DNA of 32,583 bases. Source: Nitrospirales bacterium. GTDB taxonomy: Bacteria; Nitrospirota; Nitrospiria; Nitrospirales; UBA8639. The notes below the pieces were generated by a model. The model was not told where the DNA came from and searched no databases. It saw nothing but the letters and a program-made list of their open reading frames with translations. This document shows, piece by piece, positions 280-22,542 of this stretch. The DNA is taken from assembly GCA_007570995.1 (NCBI GenBank), contig RKSG01000089.1, forward strand, positions 1-32,583, in the 5' to 3' direction. The number at the start of each line of letters is the position of its first letter. Positions within the stretch are counted from its first letter, which is position 1. A program made the translations under genes and the position numbers.

Positions 280-921
280 TCATTCCGCACTGACTTCAAT
301 GGTCCCAAAATCCACCTCCACGCCAGGACCACTTTGCAGAGAAATACCCCATGCCCGGGACGCCGGGTCATGACGATGAATTTTCTGAAAGTCCTCGTAG
401 GCATTGACTTCTTCCTCGACCCAGACCCCCAACGGTTGTCGGCCCGAACGAACCACGATCTCCGCCGCACCAAATAATCCGCCATCTGTGACCGATCCTT
501 TGCGTTTCAGATCACTCCAGACGTATTTGGTCGACACCGGAATAAACAGCAAATCTGTATCCAGGTTCGCAAAGAGCGCTACAAGAAAATCAGCGTTCTC
601 CGGGACCGATTGTAGACGCCACCGCCACCGCAACACAGGATGAGTTTTGGGATTCCACTCAATATGCCTGGTATAGACCCGCTGATTCGCCCTCGTCCCT
701 CTCAGAAACATGGTATCGCCTTCGCGATGAATGGCATACGCCTCTTTCGCGGTCACCGTGCTCCGTGACCCTTCCCATTCGCGAGGAAAGCCATCCTCAT
801 CAGGATTGCGAAAATCTTCGAGTATCGTCCCGCTCAAGACAACCGGGGCACCGATCAAAGACACGATGAGCACCATTAGGACCATGACCCCGTTGCGGAA
901 CCCGCAGTGTCTCTCGCTCAC
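280..921 (-). CDS. DUF3047 family secreted protein
   Basis: 213 aa with signal-like N-terminus, then [19 protein letters not shown]...[16 protein letters not shown]...[16 protein letters not shown], typical of DUF3047. GTG start overlaps the stop of the upstream gene (GTGA). Confidence 0.8.
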
Positions 922-2786
922 GCCGACTCCTCTCGAGAAAACACTCGTGCAAACGACACACTATCAGGTGTGGTTGGCCGATCGTCCTCCACCGCGAACA
1001 CGCTCTCTCTCGTGGACAACCAGAACATGCAAAACACCGAGGCCCAGAATACCGCCATATTCACGGTCACTATTTTGGCGGCAAACATCATCTGGGGCGT
1101 GAATGACCAAGGGGAAAGATCTGCCATCACTTCATGCACGTGCCAGCCCAACCGCCCGGCTGAACGAATGTATCCCATCAATCCCATCACCCAGGAAAAC
1201 GTCGCTGCAACCCCGAACAACGCTACCATTCCTCGCACAGAAATCCTGCCCCACTGGACGAGACCGCGACGCTCGCTTCCCTTCAGCATACAATGATTGA
1301 TCAGTAACCCACCGATTAAGACTCCAGCCGTGGTCACACCCTGCGGCAGGGACAAACCAACCCGGACATGAGCGGGAATGTAAAACCCGTAAATGGCAAC
1401 CCAGATGATATTGGCCATCCCCGAGGCAAACAATACCCCGATTGCAACATTACCCGCCCTGGCCCAAGGCACCGTGATGACTCGATTGGCCCGACGATAC
1501 AACAGGTAGCTCAAAGCCGTCAGGCAAACCATGACATTAATGGCCCCGTTTTTTGCCGACATCACCCCGAATTGACCAATGACAGGATGTTGAGCCGCGC
1601 CCATCGCTTTCATTTCACCAGGTGTCATGGCAATGGTATGGGGGGTGAACCAGACCAGAAAAGCCACGATCAGTCCGCCGATGATACATTTGAAATAGGG
1701 ATGATACCGTGCCCCATCACGTAACCGTCCCAAGGATTGCCAGACATAATAATTAATGCCTAGGAACAACGCACCGACGGTACTCGCCTGAATCACAAAA
1801 AGCCAGGACAGCAACCCGCCCATCATCGTCATGCCCATTTCCTGACGGAAGGTAAAGACGGCCCGCATGAGCCAATACCCGGCAAACGGCATCGGGAGCA
1901 AGGCACACACCACGACGACAATGAACACGTAGCCCATCCAATCGTAATACGCCCGCTCTTCCAGACACCTGGTTTTCAAGAACCGATAGGCCGCATAGGC
2001 CACAACCACGGCCCCCCCCGACATAATATCCGCCAGGAAACGATGGGCATTTAATGGATTCCACAAAGGAGAATGCAGCAGATGCCAGACGTTCCCTAAA
2101 AACTGTCCCTCGGCATTCACACCGGCCGGGGCCATCATGAATGACGCCCAGGCATTCGCTAACAGGAGCAACATTACTCCCATACCATTAGCCAGTACTC
2201 CGAGAGACAGGTGCACCCATTTCCAGACGCCGAAAGCCAGACGCGTCCAACTGTAGTGGTACAACACGAGAAGAAACGATTCACCGACAAACACCATGGC
2301 GTACACCGGCATCATGGGTTTAAACGTCGAGCCCATGTACTGCATAAAATCCGGGTAGAGTGTCAGGAACGCGCCAAGCATCACACTTCCCAGCAACGCC
2401 GTCATCGTCATCGAAAGCACGCCGACACGCAGCACATCGCGACCGAGTCCATCGTAGCGTTTGGCCGCCTGAGAATCACGACGGGACACACCAATGAACT
2501 CAAGGAGCAACGCAAACAACGGGAGCGCCAGAACGAATCCCCCAAAATAGGTATGCTGCTGCGTGACAAACCAGATGAGGATCCGGTTATCCAGGTATCG
2601 CCACTGGGGATAGGTAGGTTCAACCGCCGTGGCAGGCAGGCTCTGCGGGATGCCTTCAGTCTGATAATAGACGTCCCGAGTCGGTTGATAGAGCGAAGGG
2701 GTCTCGGAACGGGCCCACAACTCGGTGGCAATACCAAGGGCACCGCCAAGAACGAGCAAAAGCACACAACGTGAAGCCATGTTCAT
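918..2786 (-). CDS. CydA-like cytochrome bd-type oxidase subunit I (long, many TM helices)
   Basis: 622 aa polytopic protein. HTYFGGFVLALPLFALLLEFIGV, VFVGESFLLVLYHYSW, LANAWASFMMAPAGV...NAHRFLADIMSGGAVVVAYAAYRF resemble CydA helices and heme-ligand regions. No CydB-like gene nearby. Confidence 0.75.
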   Translation of the reverse strand: MNMASRCVLLLVLGGALGIATELWARSETPSLYQPTRDVYYQTEGIPQSLPATAVEPTYPQWRYLDNRILIWFVTQQHTYFGGFVLALPLFALLLEFIGVSRRDSQAAKRYDGLGRDVLRVGVLSMTMTALLGSVMLGAFLTLYPDFMQYMGSTFKPMMPVYAMVFVGESFLLVLYHYSWTRLAFGVWKWVHLSLGVLANGMGVMLLLLANAWASFMMAPAGVNAEGQFLGNVWHLLHSPLWNPLNAHRFLADIMSGGAVVVAYAAYRFLKTRCLEERAYYDWMGYVFIVVVVCALLPMPFAGYWLMRAVFTFRQEMGMTMMGGLLSWLFVIQASTVGALFLGINYYVWQSLGRLRDGARYHPYFKCIIGGLIVAFLVWFTPHTIAMTPGEMKAMGAAQHPVIGQFGVMSAKNGAINVMVCLTALSYLLYRRANRVITVPWARAGNVAIGVLFASGMANIIWVAIYGFYIPAHVRVGLSLPQGVTTAGVLIGGLLINHCMLKGSERRGLVQWGRISVRGMVALFGVAATFSWVMGLMGYIRSAGRLGWHVHEVMADLSPWSFTPQMMFAAKIVTVNMAVFWASVFCMFWLSTRESVFAVEDDRPTTPDSVSFARVFSREESA

Positions 2787-2811
2787 GCAAAGCTCTCTCT
2801 CGAAGATCCGC

Positions 2812-3843
2812 CTAGCCTGACACCCTCTGTCCGGTTTTGGCGAGCATGTCCATTACGAATGGGCAACGTCTCAAGGCTTCGGGCATACCGCCTTGTGTTT
2901 GCGCTTCAACATGCACTCGCACCCCCAACACATAGCCATACCCGGCCATCATTGCGACCGTTCCCCCGCCGACAGCCAGGTGCAGGACAAGCGGGACATC
3001 CTGCCACTGCAACACAAACATGATAACGCCCGTTTGCACCAGATAGTATGTCAACGCAAACGTCAAACACGGCCAAATCCAGAACTGGCACATGTCCCAC
3101 CATGGGCGGCTTGTGAGACGTTCCGAAGCAGGTACATGCGGGTGTCTCCCTGATAAAAATGCTCCGTGCGCAAAACAAGCCGCCAACACACAGACGACCA
3201 TCATCTGTCCAATCTCATTCTCGGCTGCAGGCCAATAGAAGCGACACACAGCGACGACCGTTCCACCGGCTCCTACCCCCGCCCCTCCCCAGCGAGCCAG
3301 TTGAAAAACGTCCCGCCGGCTCAATGCACGAAACGAACCACCGTCAGGAAACGTCACCATCCGTGTCCCATGTGATTCCACGCGGACGACGTGCCCGATT
3401 TCAAAGGCATCACGCGTGACCGCCGTACAGGCAATAATCAAGGCCATCATCGCTGGGCCTTCGGGATGCAGAAGAAAGTGATAATCGACAAAGAGTGCCA
3501 GGAGTGCCAAGACGAACAACGAAAGCTGCACACCATAGACCAACCCGATCCACCCACCTACCCAGAGAAGACGACGGAGCCCCTCCGTATGCACAATACG
3601 GACAAAGGACTCCTGCCGCCCCATCGCATACGACCAGTACGCGACCAGCATCGCCAGCACACCACTCACTGTCAACAACAGAAACGGGTCAGAGAGAGGC
3701 AGCACATGGGTGACGAGACGGTAGAGCAGGAACGCCACCAATCCCGGAACGATCATCACCCATCGTTTCCGCTTCCGAACGTCGGGAGTCGTGACAGCCA
3801 CCTGCAGTTGCGGGATGACTCGAAGTGCTAATCGATGAAACAT
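2812..3843 (-). CDS. Polytopic membrane protein of unknown function
   Basis: 343 aa with several hydrophobic helices; start overlaps the end of the PCP_red gene (3828..4421) by 16 nt, supporting a real operon gene. Confidence 0.75.
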   Translation of the reverse strand: MFHRLALRVIPQLQVAVTTPDVRKRKRWVMIVPGLVAFLLYRLVTHVLPLSDPFLLLTVSGVLAMLVAYWSYAMGRQESFVRIVHTEGLRRLLWVGGWIGLVYGVQLSLFVLALLALFVDYHFLLHPEGPAMMALIIACTAVTRDAFEIGHVVRVESHGTRMVTFPDGGSFRALSRRDVFQLARWGGAGVGAGGTVVAVCRFYWPAAENEIGQMMVVCVLAACFAHGAFLSGRHPHVPASERLTSRPWWDMCQFWIWPCLTFALTYYLVQTGVIMFVLQWQDVPLVLHLAVGGGTVAMMAGYGYVLGVRVHVEAQTQGGMPEALRRCPFVMDMLAKTGQRVSG

Positions 3844-4421
3844 CGGAATCTCAACAAGGCACGACGTCCCATGCAGGACGTGGAGACAGCACCGAACGGC
3901 GCGCCCGTCAGCCTGCGCGCATGACCGTGTGTGCCTCGGGATGTTGGCACCGCCACGCCGAAATAGCGGGCTTTGATGTCGTCCATCAGGGCTACCGTGA
4001 CTTCCGGCATCTCCCGGTCCTGCGCGGTCCGTTCCAATTCCGCGCGGGCCATAGCACGAACGGCGGCAGGAACCCGGGACAAACGACGTTCCGCGTCAGG
4101 GTGCCAGGAGACCAAGCCATGATGCCGGGCCTGCATCATCAATCCGGTTGAAATCAGCGCGAGACGGTGTTGAACAGCATAGGCCTCCACTTCCTGCTGA
4201 ACCAAAGGCGCCACGTATGGTGGCAGCCGATCTAAACGATGCTGAGCCTCATCGGTCCATACCGGACGTGCAAAGAAGCCGCTCGCTTCCCGATTATTTG
4301 CCTCAATCCCTAAATGAAATCCGCACGACCGACAGGTGTAACAAAGCATTGCATGCTGCGCATCCCATTCTTCAATGGCACGGCACTGGAAATCCGAGCC
4401 GCAGGCACACGTCATCACCAT
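3828..4421 (-). CDS. Tandem PCP_red domain protein with N-terminal CxC...CxxC motif
   Basis: 197 aa; N-terminus TCACGSDF...CYTCRSCGF (zinc-ribbon-like), then two PCP_red-like segments: VWTDEAQHRLDRLPPYVAPLVQQEVEAYAVQHRLALIS and SWHPDAERRLSRVPAAVRAMARAELERTAQDREMPEVTVALMDDIKARYFG. ATG directly follows the TAG of the upstream gene. Confidence 0.75.
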   Translation of the reverse strand: MVMTCACGSDFQCRAIEEWDAQHAMLCYTCRSCGFHLGIEANNREASGFFARPVWTDEAQHRLDRLPPYVAPLVQQEVEAYAVQHRLALISTGLMMQARHHGLVSWHPDAERRLSRVPAAVRAMARAELERTAQDREMPEVTVALMDDIKARYFGVAVPTSRGTHGHARRLTGAPFGAVSTSCMGRRALLRFRCFID

Positions 4422-5138
4422 CTATCCAATTCTTCCAGGATACAAAATATACAGCATGGCATACGTCACACTTCCAGTGACAAACAGGATGCAATACACC
4501 ACGATGGTAAACCGGCCCAACACCCGATGGCGCCGCGCGCCATTCGGCCAAAGCCTCTGAATGGTCATCTCCACACCAAACACAATGGCAATAAGCACGA
4601 TAAGGCCAAGGTAGACACCGAGCTTGCCTGCGGAAAATCCGGCGGTGACCCCGCGGCCGAGAAAGAATAACAATACGACACCCGCCACGATCCCAAACAT
4701 CGTCCCGATTTTCTTCCAAGTGGTTTGCACGATAGCCTCATGTAATGTGCGATGCCCATCGACAATGGTCTGGGAGCGAAACCCCAAGACTATCATGTAA
4801 ATTGCCATGACCAATCCGATCACGACCAAAAGAATGTGAAAAGTTAACAGAGGAACAAAGACGTTCTCATACAGAGTCTGTGACCCGCCGAACCCCTCTT
4901 TCCCTTCAAAGGCCAACACCCCCAACTGACGAAATAAATAATAACTCGTGAAAAACGCCAACATGGCCACCATGCCGCCAAGCATCAACCAATGATGACC
5001 TGTCCCATTGCCCTTTTTGGCCTGTACCCCCCCGACAAGGAAAAGCGCGGTGAACAACATCGCCATGAACTGGCTGATATCGGCTCCCATTGTCGCATGC
5101 GTCCCGGCAAACCCGGGCTCTCGCAACCATTCAGCCAT
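4422..5138 (-). CDS. DUF420 family membrane protein
   Basis: Start chosen at MAEWLREPGFAGTHATMGADISQFMAMLFTALF, overlapping the methyltransferase stop (ATGGCTGA). LRQLGVLAFEGKEGFGGSQTLYENVFVPLLTFHILLVVIGLVMAIYMIVLGFR is DUF420-like. Confidence 0.75.
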   Translation of the reverse strand: MAEWLREPGFAGTHATMGADISQFMAMLFTALFLVGGVQAKKGNGTGHHWLMLGGMVAMLAFFTSYYLFRQLGVLAFEGKEGFGGSQTLYENVFVPLLTFHILLVVIGLVMAIYMIVLGFRSQTIVDGHRTLHEAIVQTTWKKIGTMFGIVAGVVLLFFLGRGVTAGFSAGKLGVYLGLIVLIAIVFGVEMTIQRLWPNGARRHRVLGRFTIVVYCILFVTGSVTYAMLYILYPGRIG

Positions 5139-6165
5139 CTCCGCCTCCTCTTGGTTTGATTCCCTGAACAATCGCCCGCGGCGCAAGTTCCGTGACGGAC
5201 CCAAAACCAGCCTGTGTCATCCACTGCATGGCGTCCTGTGTCGTGAAACATTCCCCCTGTTCCGTGTTGACCAAGATATGCACGGCAAACGCTGTCGTCC
5301 AGGCAGGGCTCGTCCGGTCCTGATCCAAAAACCGATCTTTGATCAGCACCCGACCAAGGGCCGTTAAATGAGAAAATGCTTTTTCCACCAACCGTGCATT
5401 GGCGTGAGCACTTTGGTAATGAAGAATATCGGACAGCAACGCCAGATCGTAGGGACCGCCCCATGAATCCGTATTAAAATTCCCAGGTTGTAAGGCAATA
5501 CGGTCCTCCAAACCGGCTTCCCGGATATACCGTTTCGTCACCTTCAGGGTTTGAGGAAGATCAAACACGGTGGCTTTAAGAGAAGGATACGCGCGGCAAA
5601 ATGCGATGGCATTCGTCCCCGCACCTCCGCCCACGTCAACCATATGCTCTCCTCCCTCCAGTTGGAGGAATTGCGCGAGGTTGACACCACTCCCTCTACC
5701 GACACGGTCCAGCACCGCCAACACGTTGGCACCCATTTCCGGGTTGGTCTCAAACAGATGCTGACGCACCGGGGCAATACCGGTCCGGACGGTTTCCTCC
5801 AGTCTGCCCCAGTTCGCCCATTCCGAATCGTGCAACACCAGAAGATGGCCAACGTAGTCCGGACTTGTTTTCACCAGATGCTTCTGAGAAACACTGGTAT
5901 TCGCAACACGCTCCTCTTGTTTCGTCAAGATTCGCATCGCGACCAACGCATTGACGAGGAGTCCCAGTGCCCGTTCATTGAGCGATAATCGACGGGCCAA
6001 GCCGGCAGGAGAGTCACTGCACCCGTCCAAGGCCGAAAACAGCTCCAGCTTCACTGCCGTGAGGAGAATTTTCGTCTCCCAGTAATAGCCCATCTGAAAT
6101 ATTTCGGCGAGAGACAGCTCACGAGGCACAATACATCCTTTGTATTGTCGATGCGGATAAGCCAC
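5131..6165 (-). CDS. SAM-dependent O-methyltransferase with dimerisation domain (hydroxyneurosporene / acetylserotonin methyltransferase-like)
   Basis: 344 aa; winged-helix N-terminus (ELFSALDGCSDSPAGLARRLSLNERALGLLVNALVAM), SAM motif MVDVGGGAGTNAIAFCRAYPSLKATVFDLPQTL, and LALLSDILHY. Confidence 0.85.
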   Translation of the reverse strand: MAYPHRQYKGCIVPRELSLAEIFQMGYYWETKILLTAVKLELFSALDGCSDSPAGLARRLSLNERALGLLVNALVAMRILTKQEERVANTSVSQKHLVKTSPDYVGHLLVLHDSEWANWGRLEETVRTGIAPVRQHLFETNPEMGANVLAVLDRVGRGSGVNLAQFLQLEGGEHMVDVGGGAGTNAIAFCRAYPSLKATVFDLPQTLKVTKRYIREAGLEDRIALQPGNFNTDSWGGPYDLALLSDILHYQSAHANARLVEKAFSHLTALGRVLIKDRFLDQDRTSPAWTTAFAVHILVNTEQGECFTTQDAMQWMTQAGFGSVTELAPRAIVQGIKPRGGGDG

Positions 6166-6603: not shown

Positions 6604-7398
6604 TCACGGCTTAAATTTATTCTTCTTTTTGATATCGAAGTCGACTTTTACAGTCGCACCATCCTCGACTTCCACATCCATCGTCACGTTCCCGGCCACT
6701 GGGTGCCAAGCCAGAACTTTGTGTTTACCTGCCGGGACGTCCGTAATTTCAAACGACCCATCGCCACCTGACACATCAAAATGAGCGTTACTGACCGGCA
6801 AAAACCAAGCCTGCATAAATTCATGCTGGTCACACTGCAACCGAAGAACAGAACCCTTTCTAGCCATACGCATCTTGATTTTCTTGTCAAGTTTGTCGCC
6901 CTTTTTGGCCAACCCGATATTGAACAAGGTCGAGGATTTCGCACCAAGCACATCAAAGCTGTGGGGATTATGTAACACCCCTTCTTTGGACTTGGGATCA
7001 TTGGGGTCCGCGTCAGTATTCTCCACAACAAAGTTCCCTTTGTTCACTAACACACCTGTAAAAGGTAGGAACTCACACAGTTTGGCGATCACCTGGGGCG
7101 TATGCTGAAAGCCTTTATCCTTAATGCCACGAACAGACACGATGGCGTTTTTGAGGCCCTTGTTCGCATCCACTTCGACTTCCTTCAACAAACGTGTATC
7201 GTCGCCTTCTTTACTGGGATTCTGTTTGCAGAAATCCGGATTGGGGAACTTGGAAAAGGCAAATTCTTTCGGCGGGACGGGTTTGCCGGAATACGTGATT
7301 GTGCCCGCAATCGTCCCCCCAGCCTGCGCCATCAATGGCGTTGCAAGCAACAACCCGCCAAGGAACACCGAAACAGCACGCGATTGACGATTCCTCAT
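6604..7398 (-). CDS. Secreted cupredoxin-like + carboxypeptidase-regulatory-like protein (paralog 1)
   Basis: Start MRNRQSRAVSVFLGGLLLATPLMAQA with GGAGGAGAG upstream. Ligand-like residues HNPHSF and QCDQHEFMQAW; C-terminal GDGSFEITDVPAGKHKVLAWHPVAGNVTMDVEVEDGATVKVDF. Confidence 0.8.
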   Translation of the reverse strand: MRNRQSRAVSVFLGGLLLATPLMAQAGGTIAGTITYSGKPVPPKEFAFSKFPNPDFCKQNPSKEGDDTRLLKEVEVDANKGLKNAIVSVRGIKDKGFQHTPQVIAKLCEFLPFTGVLVNKGNFVVENTDADPNDPKSKEGVLHNPHSFDVLGAKSSTLFNIGLAKKGDKLDKKIKMRMARKGSVLRLQCDQHEFMQAWFLPVSNAHFDVSGGDGSFEITDVPAGKHKVLAWHPVAGNVTMDVEVEDGATVKVDFDIKKKNKFKP

Positions 7399-7513
7399 AA
7401 TCTCTCCTCCATGGGAATGAAGCCTGAACCTACAAAACCCCTCACGAACAACGCTCACCTGACTTACGGGGAAGGCACACTAAACGCGTGTCAGTCCCTC
7501 ATTGTCTGACTGG

Positions 7514-11922: not shown

Positions 11923-12831
11923 TTACTGCCGCTTGAGGAGGGGAACGATCGTCACGTCTCGCCCTAATGCAGCAGGCGTAAATCGAGGAGGCGTGCGCAC
12001 CGTGAGCACCGTCTTGTGTCGTCCGGGAGCAGGAAGCTGAAAATCAACAGTGAGCGTGTGCTCTGGCTCAATCGTCACGTGCTTCTTCACAATCTGCTTC
12101 ACGCTTGGATGCCATACCCGAATGGAATAATTGCCAGGCGGCACATCGGCAATGGAAAATCGCCCGCGTTCATCGGTCAGCACATGGTACGGATTCTCCA
12201 CCGCGATCGCCCAGCTTTCCATATAGGCATGAAAGCCACACTGCATAACAAATGTTCGGCGTTTTTTGCTCAGTTGGAATTGTCGAACCAGGGAGGCACC
12301 GGGTTGATGGTCGTGCTTTGCATGCAAGTTACCACGTTGATGTCGCCGGTTAAAAGGAAGCGGGGCATTAAACAGCACGCGTGTCCCTGTCACGGCCGAC
12401 GTTTCATAGGCTTGAATATCATGCATCACGGGGTCCATATTGACGACCTCAACCCCATGCCCGCTTCTCACAACAGTGGTGAAAGGCAGAAACTGACAGT
12501 CTCGAGCCTCAATACGAGGAACAGACACCGAAAATGGCTTACCTGCCTCGACTCCCTCCAGTAAGACGACGACGTCTTGTATCTGGCCTTGATCGTTCAC
12601 GACAAAATCCCGAAGCAGCCGCCACCCATTGCCATTGGATATGCGTCCGCAATACTCAGGATCTGGAAATGTCACCAGATTATAGGCCTTGGGATCAGGA
12701 ACGGGGCCAACAAGCGTGATCGTCCCCTCTACCCGTCCTCCATTGTTGACTTCGCGGACTTCATAGCCCCACGCCACACGACCAGCCATAAAGAACACGA
12801 TGCACAGGAAGACCCAGACGGACTTGGCCAT
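11923..12831 (-). CDS. Secreted cupredoxin-like + carboxypeptidase-regulatory-like protein (paralog 2)
   Basis: Likely start MAKSVWVFLCIVFFMAGRVAWG. CQFLPF...NMDPVMHDIQAYE...FVMQCGFHAYMESW, then GRFSIADVPPGNYSIRVWHPSVK. Confidence 0.8.
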   Translation of the reverse strand: MAKSVWVFLCIVFFMAGRVAWGYEVREVNNGGRVEGTITLVGPVPDPKAYNLVTFPDPEYCGRISNGNGWRLLRDFVVNDQGQIQDVVVLLEGVEAGKPFSVSVPRIEARDCQFLPFTTVVRSGHGVEVVNMDPVMHDIQAYETSAVTGTRVLFNAPLPFNRRHQRGNLHAKHDHQPGASLVRQFQLSKKRRTFVMQCGFHAYMESWAIAVENPYHVLTDERGRFSIADVPPGNYSIRVWHPSVKQIVKKHVTIEPEHTLTVDFQLPAPGRHKTVLTVRTPPRFTPAALGRDVTIVPLLKRQ

Positions 12832-12847
12832 CACGACACGCGTTTTG

Positions 12848-13774
12848 TTAAGGACGTTGCAACCGAACAGAGGGAACAATTTCAAGATCTTCCCCCAATA
12901 ATTCCAGACCAAAGTGGGGATTCTCCTGCATTTCATGCACACTTCTGCGTCCTGTAACAGGCTCATAGGCAAAATGTGCAGTGCTCGTTCTCCCCGCTTC
13001 CACAACAACGGGCTGCTCCAGATATTTTTTCATGCCGGCATGCCAGACGGTCAACACATACTCTCCGGGAGGGACATCCGTCATTGCAAACGCACCATCT
13101 TCTTTTGTGATGACATAGTAGGGATTGCGAACCACGACTCCCCAGGAAAACATATAGGGATGAAACCCGCATTGCATCACAAAAATATCTCTTCCTTTGC
13201 TGAGACGAATTTTCTGAACCATGGGCGTTCCAGGCAAATGCCTGTGACTATTCACCATCCCCAGCATCTTATGGAAAGGATTCATGGGTAACGGGCGATT
13301 AAACAAGACCCGTGCACCACGCACGCGAGCAGTTTGATAGCCCTGAATATCGTGTTGAACGGGGTCCATATTCACCACCGTGATTTCATCTTGGTCTCGC
13401 AATACATTCACAAACGGCAGAAAATCGCAGTCCACCGCCTCGATGCGCACTTCGGGCAAAGCAAAAGGTTTCCCTTCTTCAATTCCCTTGAGCATGACCA
13501 CAGCATCTTTCAGACTGCCATTTGGTCCAACAACAAAATCTTCGACAATCCGCCACCCGGTACCTGTGGAAATCCTGCCGCAATACCTGGCATCGGGTAT
13601 GGTCACCAAATTAAAAGCCATAGGCCGGGGTTTTTCGCCAAGTATCCTCACGTCCCCTTTGATTGTCCCCCCATCAGTGACCGAAATTTCTTCATACGAC
13701 CACCCCGGCGAAGCCGCCAAAAGAAGCCCGACGGAGATCACCCACGCCCAACCCACCAAGGGACGTTTCCCCAT
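12848..13774 (-). CDS. Secreted cupredoxin-like + carboxypeptidase-regulatory-like protein (paralog 3)
   Basis: Likely start MGKRPLVGWAWVISVGLLLAASPGWS. CDFLPF...NMDPVQHDIQGYQ...FVMQCGFHPYMFSW, then GAFAMTDVPPGEYVLTVWHAGMK. Strongly similar to 11923..12831. Confidence 0.8.
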   Translation of the reverse strand: MGKRPLVGWAWVISVGLLLAASPGWSYEEISVTDGGTIKGDVRILGEKPRPMAFNLVTIPDARYCGRISTGTGWRIVEDFVVGPNGSLKDAVVMLKGIEEGKPFALPEVRIEAVDCDFLPFVNVLRDQDEITVVNMDPVQHDIQGYQTARVRGARVLFNRPLPMNPFHKMLGMVNSHRHLPGTPMVQKIRLSKGRDIFVMQCGFHPYMFSWGVVVRNPYYVITKEDGAFAMTDVPPGEYVLTVWHAGMKKYLEQPVVVEAGRTSTAHFAYEPVTGRRSVHEMQENPHFGLELLGEDLEIVPSVRLQRP

Positions 13775-13868
13775 CGCTCTCTCTATCAGCGTTCCTGCAA
13801 CACTCATGATTATGTGGACCACGAGAGGCCCCAATACATGCCCCTCATACTACAAAAGCAACGTATAG

Positions 13869-13941: not shown

Positions 13942-16900
13942 TTAAAATGAAACCTGGCTGACTCTGCCTTCCGAAAACCGGTCGATCTGTGCTTCCTTGA
14001 CACCTGGAGTCACGCCACGAAGCGGCAGAATTCTCTGATCATTTTTGGACAAAACCCGAAAGTACCCCCATTGCCCTGACTGTGAGTAAGGCAAACGCGC
14101 ATTGCTGTACACGTAATCACCCGTCATGGCATACGGACCACCTGCCGCGGGAACAAAGACATCAACGCCTTCAGAACCGGAAAATTCCACGACGCTGATC
14201 TGGTCTGCACCTTCCATAAACGGTTCAATCGGCCATTCATGCTTTTCGAGAGTAAACATGCCATTTTGCTCATTGCTGGCACCAAACACATGAATCCGCA
14301 CGGGATCACCAGCATGGGCTTCAATAAGCGGCGTAACCGGATCTTGCGGATCATCAACCTGGCAAGGTTGGAACATACGACCCAACGAACATCCAAGTTC
14401 TTCGCGATACAAATAAGGCTCATTCCGGTAATTGACTCCGACGAGCCCGGCCACATTCTGGACGTAGGGCATAAAACTGGTTCCAATAATATTGTCCTCA
14501 TCCTGGAAATACAGGGACACGTCACGATAGTTGGCCCGATATTCATTGCCCGGGATGGTCCGATCCACAATGACATCGGCAACCCAGCTGTTCTTCAAGG
14601 AAATATCAGCTCCAGTCTTGGGGTCACGATAATGTGACCCCTTGGGACCAATAATAATCCCACCGAACAACCCGTTTCTCGGATTCAGAGCCACGTTTCC
14701 CCAGTCCCATACCAAAGATTGCGTCTCGCCAGTAGATGGATCCGCATAATAGGTATAAGTCCGGCTTTTCCCTGGAGCGACGGTTTGATCACCGGCATTC
14801 TTGCCAAGGTTGACGCCTTGCGAATCCGCAGGATCGAACGCCAAGGCGAAGGCGGAGAAAGACGCCCGTCCTTCCTTCATTTTGTTGGTGAGTTTCACCT
14901 TCAGGCAATCCCCAACATTCGCCCGTAAGGTCAGAGGCATGGGCTGGAATTCTCCGGAAACCTTGGCCGCTTCTTCCTCCAAGATGTAGATCCTAGCATT
15001 TGGATTTCGCACGGCAATGGTTCGTTCAAAATCCACTTCAATGGCTTCCTCCACATTGGGATTGAAGACCATTTGCGGATAATCAATTGCCACGACATTG
15101 AAATTTTTCACCGGAGCATCAGAGGGACACAATGGCAACGGCTTCTTCAGGCCAGGCCCACCGAAACCGGCATTCGGCAAAGGCTGCAAATCAGGCACTG
15201 GTTCATCCAGAACCCTGACCACCCCCCAGGACCCCTCGGACAGTTTCGAGCTCCGGCCATTGAAATACATGTAATCCCCGGGTTGTAGTCTCGGCCCTCC
15301 AGCCTGTGGGACCACCAAGTCATAGCGTTCGGCAATCCCGATGTGAATGGAATTCTTACGATTGGCGTCACCAGCATACCGCTCGGTCAGGAAGCTGTGA
15401 CCTGACACGGTGAAGACATTACTTTCGTTCATTGTCACATCAATTAACCGAAAGACAATGGTATCACCCAGATACGCCCGCACCATGGCAGTGCTCGGAT
15501 CCCCATGGATTGTGCTGTTGAAAATCTGCGATGGATCCGCGTTATTGGCCAATCGCTGGGCAAAGGGCTCGGCCCGAAAATTCAAGGCCCCGCCCGTCGT
15601 ATGTGTCCCTCCGTTGAGAAACGGCATTGGTGTCATTTTAATTGAGTCGTTCGGTGGCATTTGGAAAGATACCGTCCGTCCGGCTTCTAACGCCACCTCA
15701 ACCGGTTGTCCGGGAGGATTCCCGGCTGTCACGACATTGACCGTGTGAGGAACGGTATCCATAATCTGCACCATCAACTCACGAAAACTTCCGCTCACGC
15801 CGTAGCCCACGGGCTCCACAGTGTGAATATCCATCACCGGGCCTGTCCGTTTGGCCTCCCCAGTGACCGGATCATGCCACGTGGATCCAAACGGCTCAAT
15901 CAGGAACGAACAGATTGCACCATGTGGCCATGTCGTTCCGCCAAACGCATGGTCGTGACAGAACACGGACCCGACATCCGCATCTGCCCAGAACCGTTGA
16001 CGCACGAATTCAACCGTCACGATATCCCCAACCGGGTGAGCATGTCGCAGGGGCTCTTTCAAGGTAAGTGTCTGAGCCTTCTCATCGATGCTGGTAATTC
16101 GCTTCACTTCCGAGCCTTCGACGTTATCAGCCCCGACAAGGATTACGGTACCGACGTGATACTGCTTGGCATTCGTGACATGAATGGTCCGATCGCCCTG
16201 CTTAGCCGCTTTCGTGAATCTGGCATTCATGGGTACCGGTAACCCTTTTTCCGTTTTCTTCTCGAACTGTGTAAAAGGTCGCACAGATTGTTCGTAGGAG
16301 AAGCCACTGATCACGCCATCGGAAGCCTGATTGTCAAACTGGACAAAATGAAAGTGGGTATTAATCTTCGAAGACTGAAAATTGGTAAAGTCATCGTCGA
16401 GCCATTCACTTGTCAAAATCCAGTCCATGCAATCATAAATGTTCGCGCGAAACACCAGCGGTACCTTCAAATCATTATTCTGCCGAATCGCTTCTTCTTC
16501 ATCATGCACCACATACAACAACCCGTTCGGATCAACAATGGCGTCCTGATCCCCTTGGGCCGCTGACAACTCAATTGGAAGCTTGATAAAATGGATATTA
16601 TACTCTTGGGAACCAGCCCGCTCCGGGCACAGGCTCCAACGGCCATTCTCACCGGGTCGTGCCGGCTCAACCGACGGCTGGCCATCATCATCGAGATGGA
16701 TCATTTCCAGCCATGGCGCGGGATTGCGATCCGGCGAGAACGGTGCCCGTTTTCCGAAGTGAGGAGTCAACCAAGGCCACGCGACTTTGCCGGTACTTGC
16801 CTCGAACCATATCGGCCGCCGTTCCCCCTGCTTGTATCCTTGCCATTCAGGATGGTATTTGGGATTTTCAACCGTGCTTTCTTTTTCACTCATTGCACGA

Positions 16901-18906
16901 TCACCGTCCCAAACCCAATCAACCACGGTTGCGTCATACGATTTAATTTGGCCGACCTCATCTTCCACATGACCGGGAAGACCGCGAGTCGGCAATTGCA
17001 TTTCCACCCAATCGTAAATGCGCACCACAGCCGGATCGGATTGCCAATTGGTTTTTTCAGTGTTCTCAACGATCCTGAACCGTTTTCCGAACCAGTCAAC
17101 GGTGGTCCCCACCAATTTGTCAGACGTCACCGGCCCGGCAATGCGCCCCATACGATCGGGCAACTCGCGAAGTGGAGGCATCACGTCGTTCTGGATACCA
17201 GGAGCCTGCAAGGTGTTATACACCCGCCAGTAGCCCCACATGCCAGCCACATAGTGATGCGCCACGTGGCAATGGAACAAAAAGTCACCGGCCAGATATT
17301 GACACAAACCGGATCCGCATTCCGTTTCCAGATCAATTGCTTCAGACGGCCCTATCACCTCCACGTCAACCCGGTCTGATTTGGCACGAATGAGCGGATA
17401 TTTCACGGGCCCATTCTGCCCCTTGTGCCACATGGGCATCTGATCGACCGCTCGAGGGCTTCGGACCCATCGAATCGCACCGCCATGCGGATGATGGGAA
17501 TGGAACACCTCGGACCCGCCATGCACCAGACGAAACTTGGCAGGATCCCCCAAATAACTCCGTGGAATTGTCGGCCCTGCATCACCGAACGTGTATGCAC
17601 TGTACGCCATGGACTCGTCTTCAAACCCAAAGTACTCATGTTGAACGTGCATATTGTTGATGCCAAACGGCTCACTTCGGTAGTTCAGTGCCCTGGCCCC
17701 TGGCCGATAGGCATCGGTTAACGGGTCACGTTGCGGAAGGAAGTCCCCATGCCGGTTCACGGGTCGGAAGGCTTCATCGCCTACTTCGTGGTAGATTAAC
17801 ACAAATTCCCGGAAGTCTGGCCCTTGGCCATTTTGAATGATGGCTTGCCAACCACTCGACATCGCATCGGCAGAACCCACCCCAAGTGGATCCAGATACT
17901 CCGAACCAGCCGGTTCAACCACGAACACCCCAAACAGCCCCATCACTGTCAGCTCACGGTCATTACTGTAACTGTGGAACTGCCGCCCGCCTTCCTGCGT
18001 GGCAGGATGGATATACCACTCCATGTGCACGGGTGTGGCGTCACAATGTTCTTCTCCCTCTTCTTCACCCTCTTCGCCTTCTTCCTCTTCTTCACAATCT
18101 TCGCCAGGGCCATAGGCAATGGCATCAGGATTTGTCGTCGTCGCAGGCTGGCCTGTCTTACTGACCACCATGCTGGACCCGTTGATGTGGAGACTGACAT
18201 CCTCTCCGAATTCCAATTGATTGCGCAGTGTGATTCTGACACAATCGCCTTGATTGCCACGAATCACCAGCGGTTGAATGTATTGACCCTGAATGCCGTT
18301 TTTCACAGCACCTGGGTCATGATGGCCTTCCGCCTCCCGCGCTTCGGCATTGCTGGCCTCTTCTGCACGAACCTTCTCAATATTCTCGGTCAGCACGTAC
18401 ATATAGCCTGGGTAATAATCCAGCCATTGATTTAGAGTGATTTCCACATTGATGGCCGACACGTCATATTTTCGAACCGGAGCCGCCGTCGGACATCTCC
18501 CATCGCTTGTCAGGGAAACCGGTTCAATATCGGCATCGGAAGACAGCAAGTAATTCCCCTTACCCGCACCGTATTGATGCATCATGGACATCGTGTCAAA
18601 TCCCCCGGAGCCAGAGGATCCTGCTTCCCTGCCCATTTGCCGCATCAAACGCTCATGCTGCTGTTCAACAAGCGCGGCGCGCTCTGCCCTCCCCTCCTGG
18701 GCATTTTCGACAATCGTCTGCCCTTTAAGGCGCTCTGTCCACGTCGGGCTCTGATGACTCATCCCTGTTGTGTGAAGCAATGGTTGCACAGTGCGCTCTT
18801 CAGCTCCCGCAACCGACAACGGAAGCATAAGGAACGCGAGAGCAAACATACTTTTCACTCCCGGAAACGCACATGATCTTACGGAAAAACGATTAAAACG
18901 AAACAT
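13942..18906 (-). CDS. Giant multicopper oxidase (~1654 aa), MofA-like candidate
   Basis: Start at MFRFNRFSVRSCAFPGVKSMFALAFLMLPLSVAGA with CGGAGG upstream. Contains FHCHVAHHYVAGM (canonical HCHxxxHxxxxM), VFHSHHPHGG, NTHFHFVQF, VFCHDHAFGGTTWPHG. Confidence 0.9.
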   Translation of the reverse strand: MFRFNRFSVRSCAFPGVKSMFALAFLMLPLSVAGAEERTVQPLLHTTGMSHQSPTWTERLKGQTIVENAQEGRAERAALVEQQHERLMRQMGREAGSSGSGGFDTMSMMHQYGAGKGNYLLSSDADIEPVSLTSDGRCPTAAPVRKYDVSAINVEITLNQWLDYYPGYMYVLTENIEKVRAEEASNAEAREAEGHHDPGAVKNGIQGQYIQPLVIRGNQGDCVRITLRNQLEFGEDVSLHINGSSMVVSKTGQPATTTNPDAIAYGPGEDCEEEEEGEEGEEEGEEHCDATPVHMEWYIHPATQEGGRQFHSYSNDRELTVMGLFGVFVVEPAGSEYLDPLGVGSADAMSSGWQAIIQNGQGPDFREFVLIYHEVGDEAFRPVNRHGDFLPQRDPLTDAYRPGARALNYRSEPFGINNMHVQHEYFGFEDESMAYSAYTFGDAGPTIPRSYLGDPAKFRLVHGGSEVFHSHHPHGGAIRWVRSPRAVDQMPMWHKGQNGPVKYPLIRAKSDRVDVEVIGPSEAIDLETECGSGLCQYLAGDFLFHCHVAHHYVAGMWGYWRVYNTLQAPGIQNDVMPPLRELPDRMGRIAGPVTSDKLVGTTVDWFGKRFRIVENTEKTNWQSDPAVVRIYDWVEMQLPTRGLPGHVEDEVGQIKSYDATVVDWVWDGDRAMSEKESTVENPKYHPEWQGYKQGERRPIWFEASTGKVAWPWLTPHFGKRAPFSPDRNPAPWLEMIHLDDDGQPSVEPARPGENGRWSLCPERAGSQEYNIHFIKLPIELSAAQGDQDAIVDPNGLLYVVHDEEEAIRQNNDLKVPLVFRANIYDCMDWILTSEWLDDDFTNFQSSKINTHFHFVQFDNQASDGVISGFSYEQSVRPFTQFEKKTEKGLPVPMNARFTKAAKQGDRTIHVTNAKQYHVGTVILVGADNVEGSEVKRITSIDEKAQTLTLKEPLRHAHPVGDIVTVEFVRQRFWADADVGSVFCHDHAFGGTTWPHGAICSFLIEPFGSTWHDPVTGEAKRTGPVMDIHTVEPVGYGVSGSFRELMVQIMDTVPHTVNVVTAGNPPGQPVEVALEAGRTVSFQMPPNDSIKMTPMPFLNGGTHTTGGALNFRAEPFAQRLANNADPSQIFNSTIHGDPSTAMVRAYLGDTIVFRLIDVTMNESNVFTVSGHSFLTERYAGDANRKNSIHIGIAERYDLVVPQAGGPRLQPGDYMYFNGRSSKLSEGSWGVVRVLDEPVPDLQPLPNAGFGGPGLKKPLPLCPSDAPVKNFNVVAIDYPQMVFNPNVEEAIEVDFERTIAVRNPNARIYILEEEAAKVSGEFQPMPLTLRANVGDCLKVKLTNKMKEGRASFSAFALAFDPADSQGVNLGKNAGDQTVAPGKSRTYTYYADPSTGETQSLVWDWGNVALNPRNGLFGGIIIGPKGSHYRDPKTGADISLKNSWVADVIVDRTIPGNEYRANYRDVSLYFQDEDNIIGTSFMPYVQNVAGLVGVNYRNEPYLYREELGCSLGRMFQPCQVDDPQDPVTPLIEAHAGDPVRIHVFGASNEQNGMFTLEKHEWPIEPFMEGADQISVVEFSGSEGVDVFVPAAGGPYAMTGDYVYSNARLPYSQSGQWGYFRVLSKNDQRILPLRGVTPGVKEAQIDRFSEGRVSQVSF

Positions 18907-18998
18907 AGCCAGCCTCCGTAACAAGGAACACACCTTCTGGGAAACACTTGTGGAATGACACAATCCATCCTCGTCATATCAGATGCAACAGTGAGGGG

Positions 18999-22047: not shown

Positions 22048-22542
22048 TCAGCGAAGAACCAGAAGCGTGCCACCCACATGCGCGCCATGCAACTGACATT
22101 TGTACTGCAGGGTGTTGCTTGCCGTAACATATGTCAAGTCGCTGACCGGAATACCAATGTACTTGGTTTCACCTGGCTCCAGGGTAATCTTCACATGCAT
22201 TGACGTTGGCCCGGCAAACGCAGAATCTGCATTGAGGTCAAACCCATGCACACTGTCAAGTGAATTGGTCACCTTGAGAAGCACCGGGCGACCTGCTCGC
22301 CCCCCTGTTCCCTGAGATGTGAGATCAAGGATGGCTGTTGGCGGATACCATACCTTTTTGCCACCGATCTCCATCGCAATAAAACTCACGTCAACATCAA
22401 GTGTTTTAAACGGCTGTCCTACAACGGACCCGGAAGCGAGATCCCCAACTTCCACACCTCCGGACTGCAACGCCAACGCGACCGAAGAACCAGTCGCCAC
22501 CAGAATGAAACTCAAAAGGACGGATAGAAGCACCTTGCGCAT
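22048..22542 (-). CDS. Small secreted cupredoxin-like protein
   Basis: 164 aa, signal peptide; TNSLDSVHGFDLNADS...ITLEPGETKYIGIPVSDL...LQYKCQLHGAHVGGTLLVLR, cupredoxin C-terminal Cys/His loop. Confidence 0.8.
   Translation of the reverse strand: MRKVLLSVLLSFILVATGSSVALALQSGGVEVGDLASGSVVGQPFKTLDVDVSFIAMEIGGKKVWYPPTAILDLTSQGTGGRAGRPVLLKVTNSLDSVHGFDLNADSAFAGPTSMHVKITLEPGETKYIGIPVSDLTYVTASNTLQYKCQLHGAHVGGTLLVLR

Follow-up and report, generated by a model that had tools for sequence, protein, structure and literature searches.

A giant six-domain MnxG-like multicopper oxidase and its candidate copper-protein partners in a Nitrospirales bacterium

The window, i.e. the whole 32,583-nt stretch of contig RKSG01000089.1 that we analysed, encodes a giant multicopper oxidase (MCO) of 1654 residues. 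This protein is a further member of the bacterial six-domain MnxG-like MCOs, a known type found here in a known type of host: it has six cupredoxin domains arranged as three pairs. On balance, we consider it probable that it is a secreted, probably periplasmic enzyme whose reductant is a metal ion, with Mn(II) as the first candidate, and that neighbouring proteins with CxxHxxM motifs help it with copper or electrons. The features discussed below are collected in Table 1.

Table 1. Features of the MCO gene and its surroundings. Coordinates are those of the window; residue numbers count from the TTG codon at 18963.
Feature	Position	Strand	Description
MCO gene	13942..18906	-	ATG start, 1654 aa; frame open to TTG 18963
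Probable N-terminal signal peptide	18790..18906	-	hydrophobic core MFALAFLMLPLSVAGA; read by eye
Cupredoxin D1	17908..18495	-	residues ~157-352; trinuclear HxH motifs degenerate (HIN / FHS)
Cupredoxin D2	17164..17901	-	residues ~355-600; carries type 1 Cu site plus one half of trinuclear site
Cupredoxin D3	15883..16641	-	residues ~775-1027; second half of trinuclear site
Cupredoxin D4	15178..15846	-	residues ~1040-1262; no type 1 Cys-His motif
Cupredoxin D5	14629..15141	-	residues ~1275-1445; no Cu ligands
Cupredoxin D6	14014..14616	-	residues ~1450-1650; no Cu ligands
HSHHPH	17485..17502	-	type 1 His488, trinuclear His491 and His493; invariant in all homologues aligned there
HCHVAHHYVAGM	17239..17274	-	trinuclear His564/His566, type 1 Cys565/His570/Met575; invariant in all homologues aligned there
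HFH	16348..16356	-	trinuclear His870/His872; 109/109 homologues
Beta-rich D3 insert	15988..16191	-	between HFH and CHDH motifs; site of LysM in close relatives, LysM missing here
CHDH	15949..15960	-	Cys1002, trinuclear His1003/His1005; His in 108/108 aligned rows
Cys1018	15910..15912	-	co-occurs with Cys1002
Partner 1	12848..13834	-	secreted-looking, CxxHxxM (blue-copper-like); carboxypeptidase-regulatory-like C-terminal domain
Partner 2	11923..13008	-	CxxHxxM paralogue of partner 1, 47% identical
Partner-family paralogue 3	6604..7458	-	CxxHxxM; homologue adjoins MCO in Nitrospinota
Cytochrome bd-like oxidase subunit I	918..2786	-	PF01654; same gene block

The MCO gene lies on the minus strand, which the original prediction had left unstated. 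The end coordinate given there, 18906, is the first in-frame ATG and is right, since alignments with homologues begin at about that residue. The open frame reaches further 5', up to a TTG at 18963 (1673 residues), from which all residue numbers used here are counted; ATG-based numbers are lower by 19. The N-terminus resembles a signal peptide, which suggests that the protein is exported and probably resides in the periplasm, the location given for this MCO family in the relevant passages of Luecker et al. 2013 (PMC3578206).

A threefold internal repetition had been proposed for this giant MCO, and the landmark motifs quoted as its signs are all present in the minus-strand protein. The repetition was borne out by comparisons between the three units (U1 to U3). 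Single-sequence BLASTP yielded E-values of 2e-12 (U1-U3), 1.6e-17 (U2-U3) and 2e-6 (U1-U2). Comparisons of profiles made from 94 Nitrospirota and Nitrospinota homologues yielded 9e-24 (U1-U2), 4e-27 (U1-U3) and 5e-30 (U2-U3), with column-shuffled controls at 0.06-0.54. At the level of domains, odd ones matched odd ones (D1-D3-D5) and even ones matched even ones (D2-D4-D6), with no convincing cross match between odd and even domains in the profile comparison. Thus, two cupredoxin domains together make up the unit that is present three times.

As originally predicted, the copper motifs are limited to D2 (HSHHPH and HCHVAHHYVAGM) and D3 (HFH and CHDH). D1 retains mere fragments of an HxH pair, and no Cys-His type 1 motif was found in D4 to D6. 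The ligands of the type 1 site are His488, Cys565, His570 and Met575, and those of the trinuclear site are His491, 493, 564 and 566 of D2 together with His870, 872, 1003 and 1005 of D3. All 12 ligands expected for one site of each kind are invariant wherever they are aligned (103 to 109 rows each), in an alignment that extends to Halobacteria, Streptomyces, Proteobacteria and a Priestia protein encoded downstream of two small genes, as in mnxEFG. Judging from these aligned residues, the distribution of ligands is not haphazard: a single type 1 site, complete, lies in D2, and a single trinuclear site, likewise complete, is formed jointly by D2 and D3. The ‘graded ligand loss’ noted in the original prediction thus exists as a pattern. 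Nevertheless, it is no peculiarity of this protein: all bacterial six-domain MCOs surveyed in 2013 have their type 1 site in D2 and their trinuclear site between D2 and D3, with eroded ligands in other places (PMC3600357). The aligned ligands of the window protein follow that layout, with a type 1 site only in D2, which makes the loss real but ordinary.

Next to the trinuclear site, Cys1002 directly precedes His1003 at a position occupied by Trp in most relatives. In the group of the window protein (24 rows), it always occurs with Cys1018, the two taking the place of Trp and a small residue. A disulphide between these two Cys residues is possible.

The best match of the protein in the PDB by sequence is Bacillus MnxG (9bxa, E 1e-67), followed by two-domain laccases (4e-5). 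Both partial AlphaFold models, which are of moderate confidence (pLDDT 65 and 72, with domain 2 badly modelled), also match this structure best in fold (E 3e-51 and 2e-40); the runners-up are of the ceruloplasmin/factor V type (E 6e-24 and 3e-12). The window protein resembles MnxG of the Bacillus sp. PL-12 MnxEFG complex (9bxa) in its six cupredoxin domains, its type 1 site in D2, its trinuclear site between D2 and D3 and all its ligands, but it is larger than the 1217 residues of MnxG. The Priestia homologue of Bacillus MnxG shares 28% identity with the window protein, and its locus has two small genes preceding the MCO gene. We recognized no mnxE- or mnxF-like small genes beside the window MCO gene, with ORFs of <100 residues covered unsystematically. 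The MnxG of Pseudomonas is a giant six-domain MCO family as well, but the window protein scores only 122 of the 3100 bits required by the corresponding NCBIfam equivalog model, NF041487. In a phylogenetic tree, the Nitrospirota and Nitrospinota sequences form one clade, with the Streptomyces homologue next to it and the MnxG-, haloarchaeal- and proteobacterial-type sequences further out on long branches.

The size and organization of the protein had also been likened to those of MofA of Leptothrix discophora, which is of similar size and belongs to the giant MCO class as well. Closeness to MofA is unsupported, because at E 1e-20 the window protein had no match in 299 other genomes of the order sampled for this purpose. 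This sample, which may or may not include Leptothrix, comprised 300 genomes from the order to which a Nitrosomonas-labelled bin belongs; the only match was the Nitrospirales-like contig of that bin itself, which is probably mis-binned. Searches of the same order with family models found distant MnxG-type proteins only, one of which was placed far outside in the tree. Furthermore, we found no mofBC-type operon beside the window MCO gene: the MofA operon includes Mip-like and cytochrome c genes, whereas the neighbours in the window code for CxxHxxM, HEAT-repeat, thioredoxin-like and aminotransferase proteins.

Luecker et al. 2013 described a periplasmic MCO similar to the Mn oxidase of Bacillus SG-1 and conserved in Nitrospina and Nitrospira, the gene of which clusters with those of a cytochrome bd-like oxidase and cupredoxin-like proteins (PMC3578206). 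By that description, the MCOs of Nitrospina gracilis and Ca. Nitrospira defluvii belong to the same family as the window gene; the Nitrospinota homologues that we collected are about 51-59% identical to the window protein. For nitrite oxidizers, those passages propose a role of the family in Mn oxidation and in a defence against reactive oxygen species based on Mn(III). They contain no mention of the D3 insert, a LysM domain, the Cys pair or an occurrence in genomes that lack nitrite oxidoreductase (NXR). Our analyses thus add to earlier knowledge the nested insert, in which LysM is variable, the paired Cys residues and a distribution independent of NXR.

One to several copies of the giant oxidase are found in nitrite oxidizers of the Nitrospirales and Nitrospinota. 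The gene is present in 58 of 60 close relatives. Among these, a same-genus genome shows the same contig coordinates and score as Nitrospira sp. bin75, which places the window in that genus-level group. Of 246 sampled Nitrospirota, 91 have the gene; 80 of these belong to the order of the window and the remaining 11 to other orders of class Nitrospiria. Among the matches listed for this sample, none came from outside the class. NxrA was not found in those 11 genomes at E 1e-200, a cut-off permissive enough to pick up NxrA-like proteins of ~40% identity. Conversely, such proteins of about 40% identity occur in 12 genomes from outside the class that gave no MCO match. In Nitrospinota, we found the MCO in 52 and NxrA in 24 of 77 sampled genomes, which were often fragmented. 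The 11 class members with the MCO and no detectable NxrA indicate that the MCO is not specific to nitrite oxidation; its gene tracks the lineage, class Nitrospiria, rather than that metabolism. They would also allow the enzyme to be tested separately from nitrite oxidation. Proteins sharing 52-77% identity with the window MCO, as do those of Nitrospirota and Nitrospinota, also turned up in five contigs assigned to Nitrosomonas, Opitutales, Poseidoniales, Acidobacteriota or Verrucomicrobiales, probably through mis-binning.

The genes next to the MCO gene code for proteins that, from their sequences, look like type 1 copper proteins. Their CxxHxxM motif is kept in all 118 partner homologues. A member of this family follows within 1.5 kb on the same strand in 48 of the 62 MCO copies, spanning Nitrospirota and Nitrospinota, with enough downstream sequence to see it. 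The listed frame of partner 2 overlaps partner 1, and its true start is probably further downstream. Elsewhere in the window, a gene on the minus strand (22048-22542) codes for a secreted-looking, 164-residue protein that recalls a nitrosocyanin-like cupredoxin; its CxxHxxH motif is kept in 18 of 18 homologues from the same neighbourhood. PDB sequence searches with this protein and with partner 1 returned no significant match. The cytochrome bd-like gene sits beside genes for DUF420 membrane, PCP_red-domain and O-methyltransferase proteins (918-6165, minus strand), and the order of these three genes with the MCO block is retained in several relatives. The neighbourhood gave no manganese-specific hints.

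In the mechanism that we propose, the single type 1 copper of D2 (His488, Cys565, His570 and Met575) would accept electrons from a small reductant. These electrons would cross the bridge formed by Cys565 and His564/566 to the trinuclear cluster between D2 and D3, where O2 would be reduced to water. Domains 1, 4, 5 and 6 would serve as a scaffold. The reductant would most likely be a metal ion, with Mn(II) ranking before the alternatives Fe(II) and Cu(I), and the neighbouring CxxHxxM proteins would probably deliver copper to the oxidase or exchange electrons with it. Mn(II) as the substrate is a reasonable analogy with MnxG; we found no activity assay of any member of the Nitrospiria/Nitrospinia clade in the literature. 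If the protein does oxidize Mn(II), abundant nitrite oxidizers would have a hand in the manganese cycle and acquire a means of defence against superoxide.

The same genes might be read differently, with the CxxHxxM neighbour as the electron donor and the pair as a periplasmic, O2-reducing electron sink that uses no metal substrate. The frequency with which a partner with the conserved motif follows the MCO gene in both phyla, and the cytochrome bd-like oxidase in the gene block, are consistent with such a pair. Nevertheless, we hold it to be unlikely, as 14 of the 62 copies have no adjoining downstream partner, an oxidase that wastes energy would be a burden for chemolithoautotrophs, and the solved relative MnxG is known to oxidize Mn(II) directly. 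A detoxification oxidase acting on Cu(I) or Fe(II), comparable in effect to CueO or ceruloplasmin, would fit with the six-domain fold shared with ceruloplasmin and with the copper-protein genes clustered around the MCO gene. It would also fit with the copC-annotated gene that follows the Streptomyces homologue and the copC/copD genes that precede the Priestia one. However, by far the nearest solved homologue is a Mn oxidase, and no copper efflux gene was recognized within the window, so that this role too appears rather doubtful.

A function specific to NXR was also considered, with the MCO as a dedicated part of the electron chain of that enzyme. Both NxrA and NxrB are present in the window's genome, and the reported clustering of the gene, in nitrite oxidizers, with those for cytochrome bd-like and cupredoxin proteins would agree with it (PMC3578206). 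We nonetheless regard this function as very unlikely: it is weakened by the 11 MCO-bearing genomes outside Nitrospirales in which NxrA was not detected, and the anammox bacterium Kuenenia lacks the MCO according to those same passages. Least credible of all is a non-catalytic structural relic; four of the six domains have no complete set of copper ligands, but the invariance of all 12 active-site ligands in >100 homologues makes such a status extremely improbable. A metal-oxidizing MCO, with Mn(II) as the first candidate substrate, is thus the reading that we retain.

The D3 insert, about 65-85 residues long in the family, has a weak similarity to PF23764 that remains under the cut-off. It is present in the Streptomyces homologue and missing from the Priestia MnxG type, which has a loop of 8 residues there. 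Most members of the group closest to the window protein have a LysM domain nested within it (PF01476, E 3e-13 to 4e-15). LysM is missing in the window protein and in that of MEX2-MAG7, both of which belong inside a LysM-bearing clade (support 100/100); a tree uniting the nine LysM-bearing relatives to the exclusion of these two was rejected (AU test, p 0.002). An ‘AQTLT’ remnant in the LysM-less sequence matches the 3' linker of LysM. The simplest reading is that the window protein has lost its LysM. Four LysM changes in all are needed on the tree, and repeated gain may be an alternative to loss. Our literature search on LysM in combination with multicopper oxidases found nothing relevant. One might speculate that the Nitrospiria/Nitrospinia proteins form a metallo-oxidase clade of their own, in which the insert gates or anchors the enzyme, with wall-bound LysM forms and free LysM-less ones, as a class-wide, NXR-independent Mn(II)/O2 system shared with manganese-oxidizing relatives; we consider this scenario quite unlikely as a whole. 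Lastly, one MCO (locus L035, 9995-15100) combines the W/G residues of the second marine paralogue group with a LysM insert and with the gene neighbourhood of the first group, possibly a case of gene conversion.
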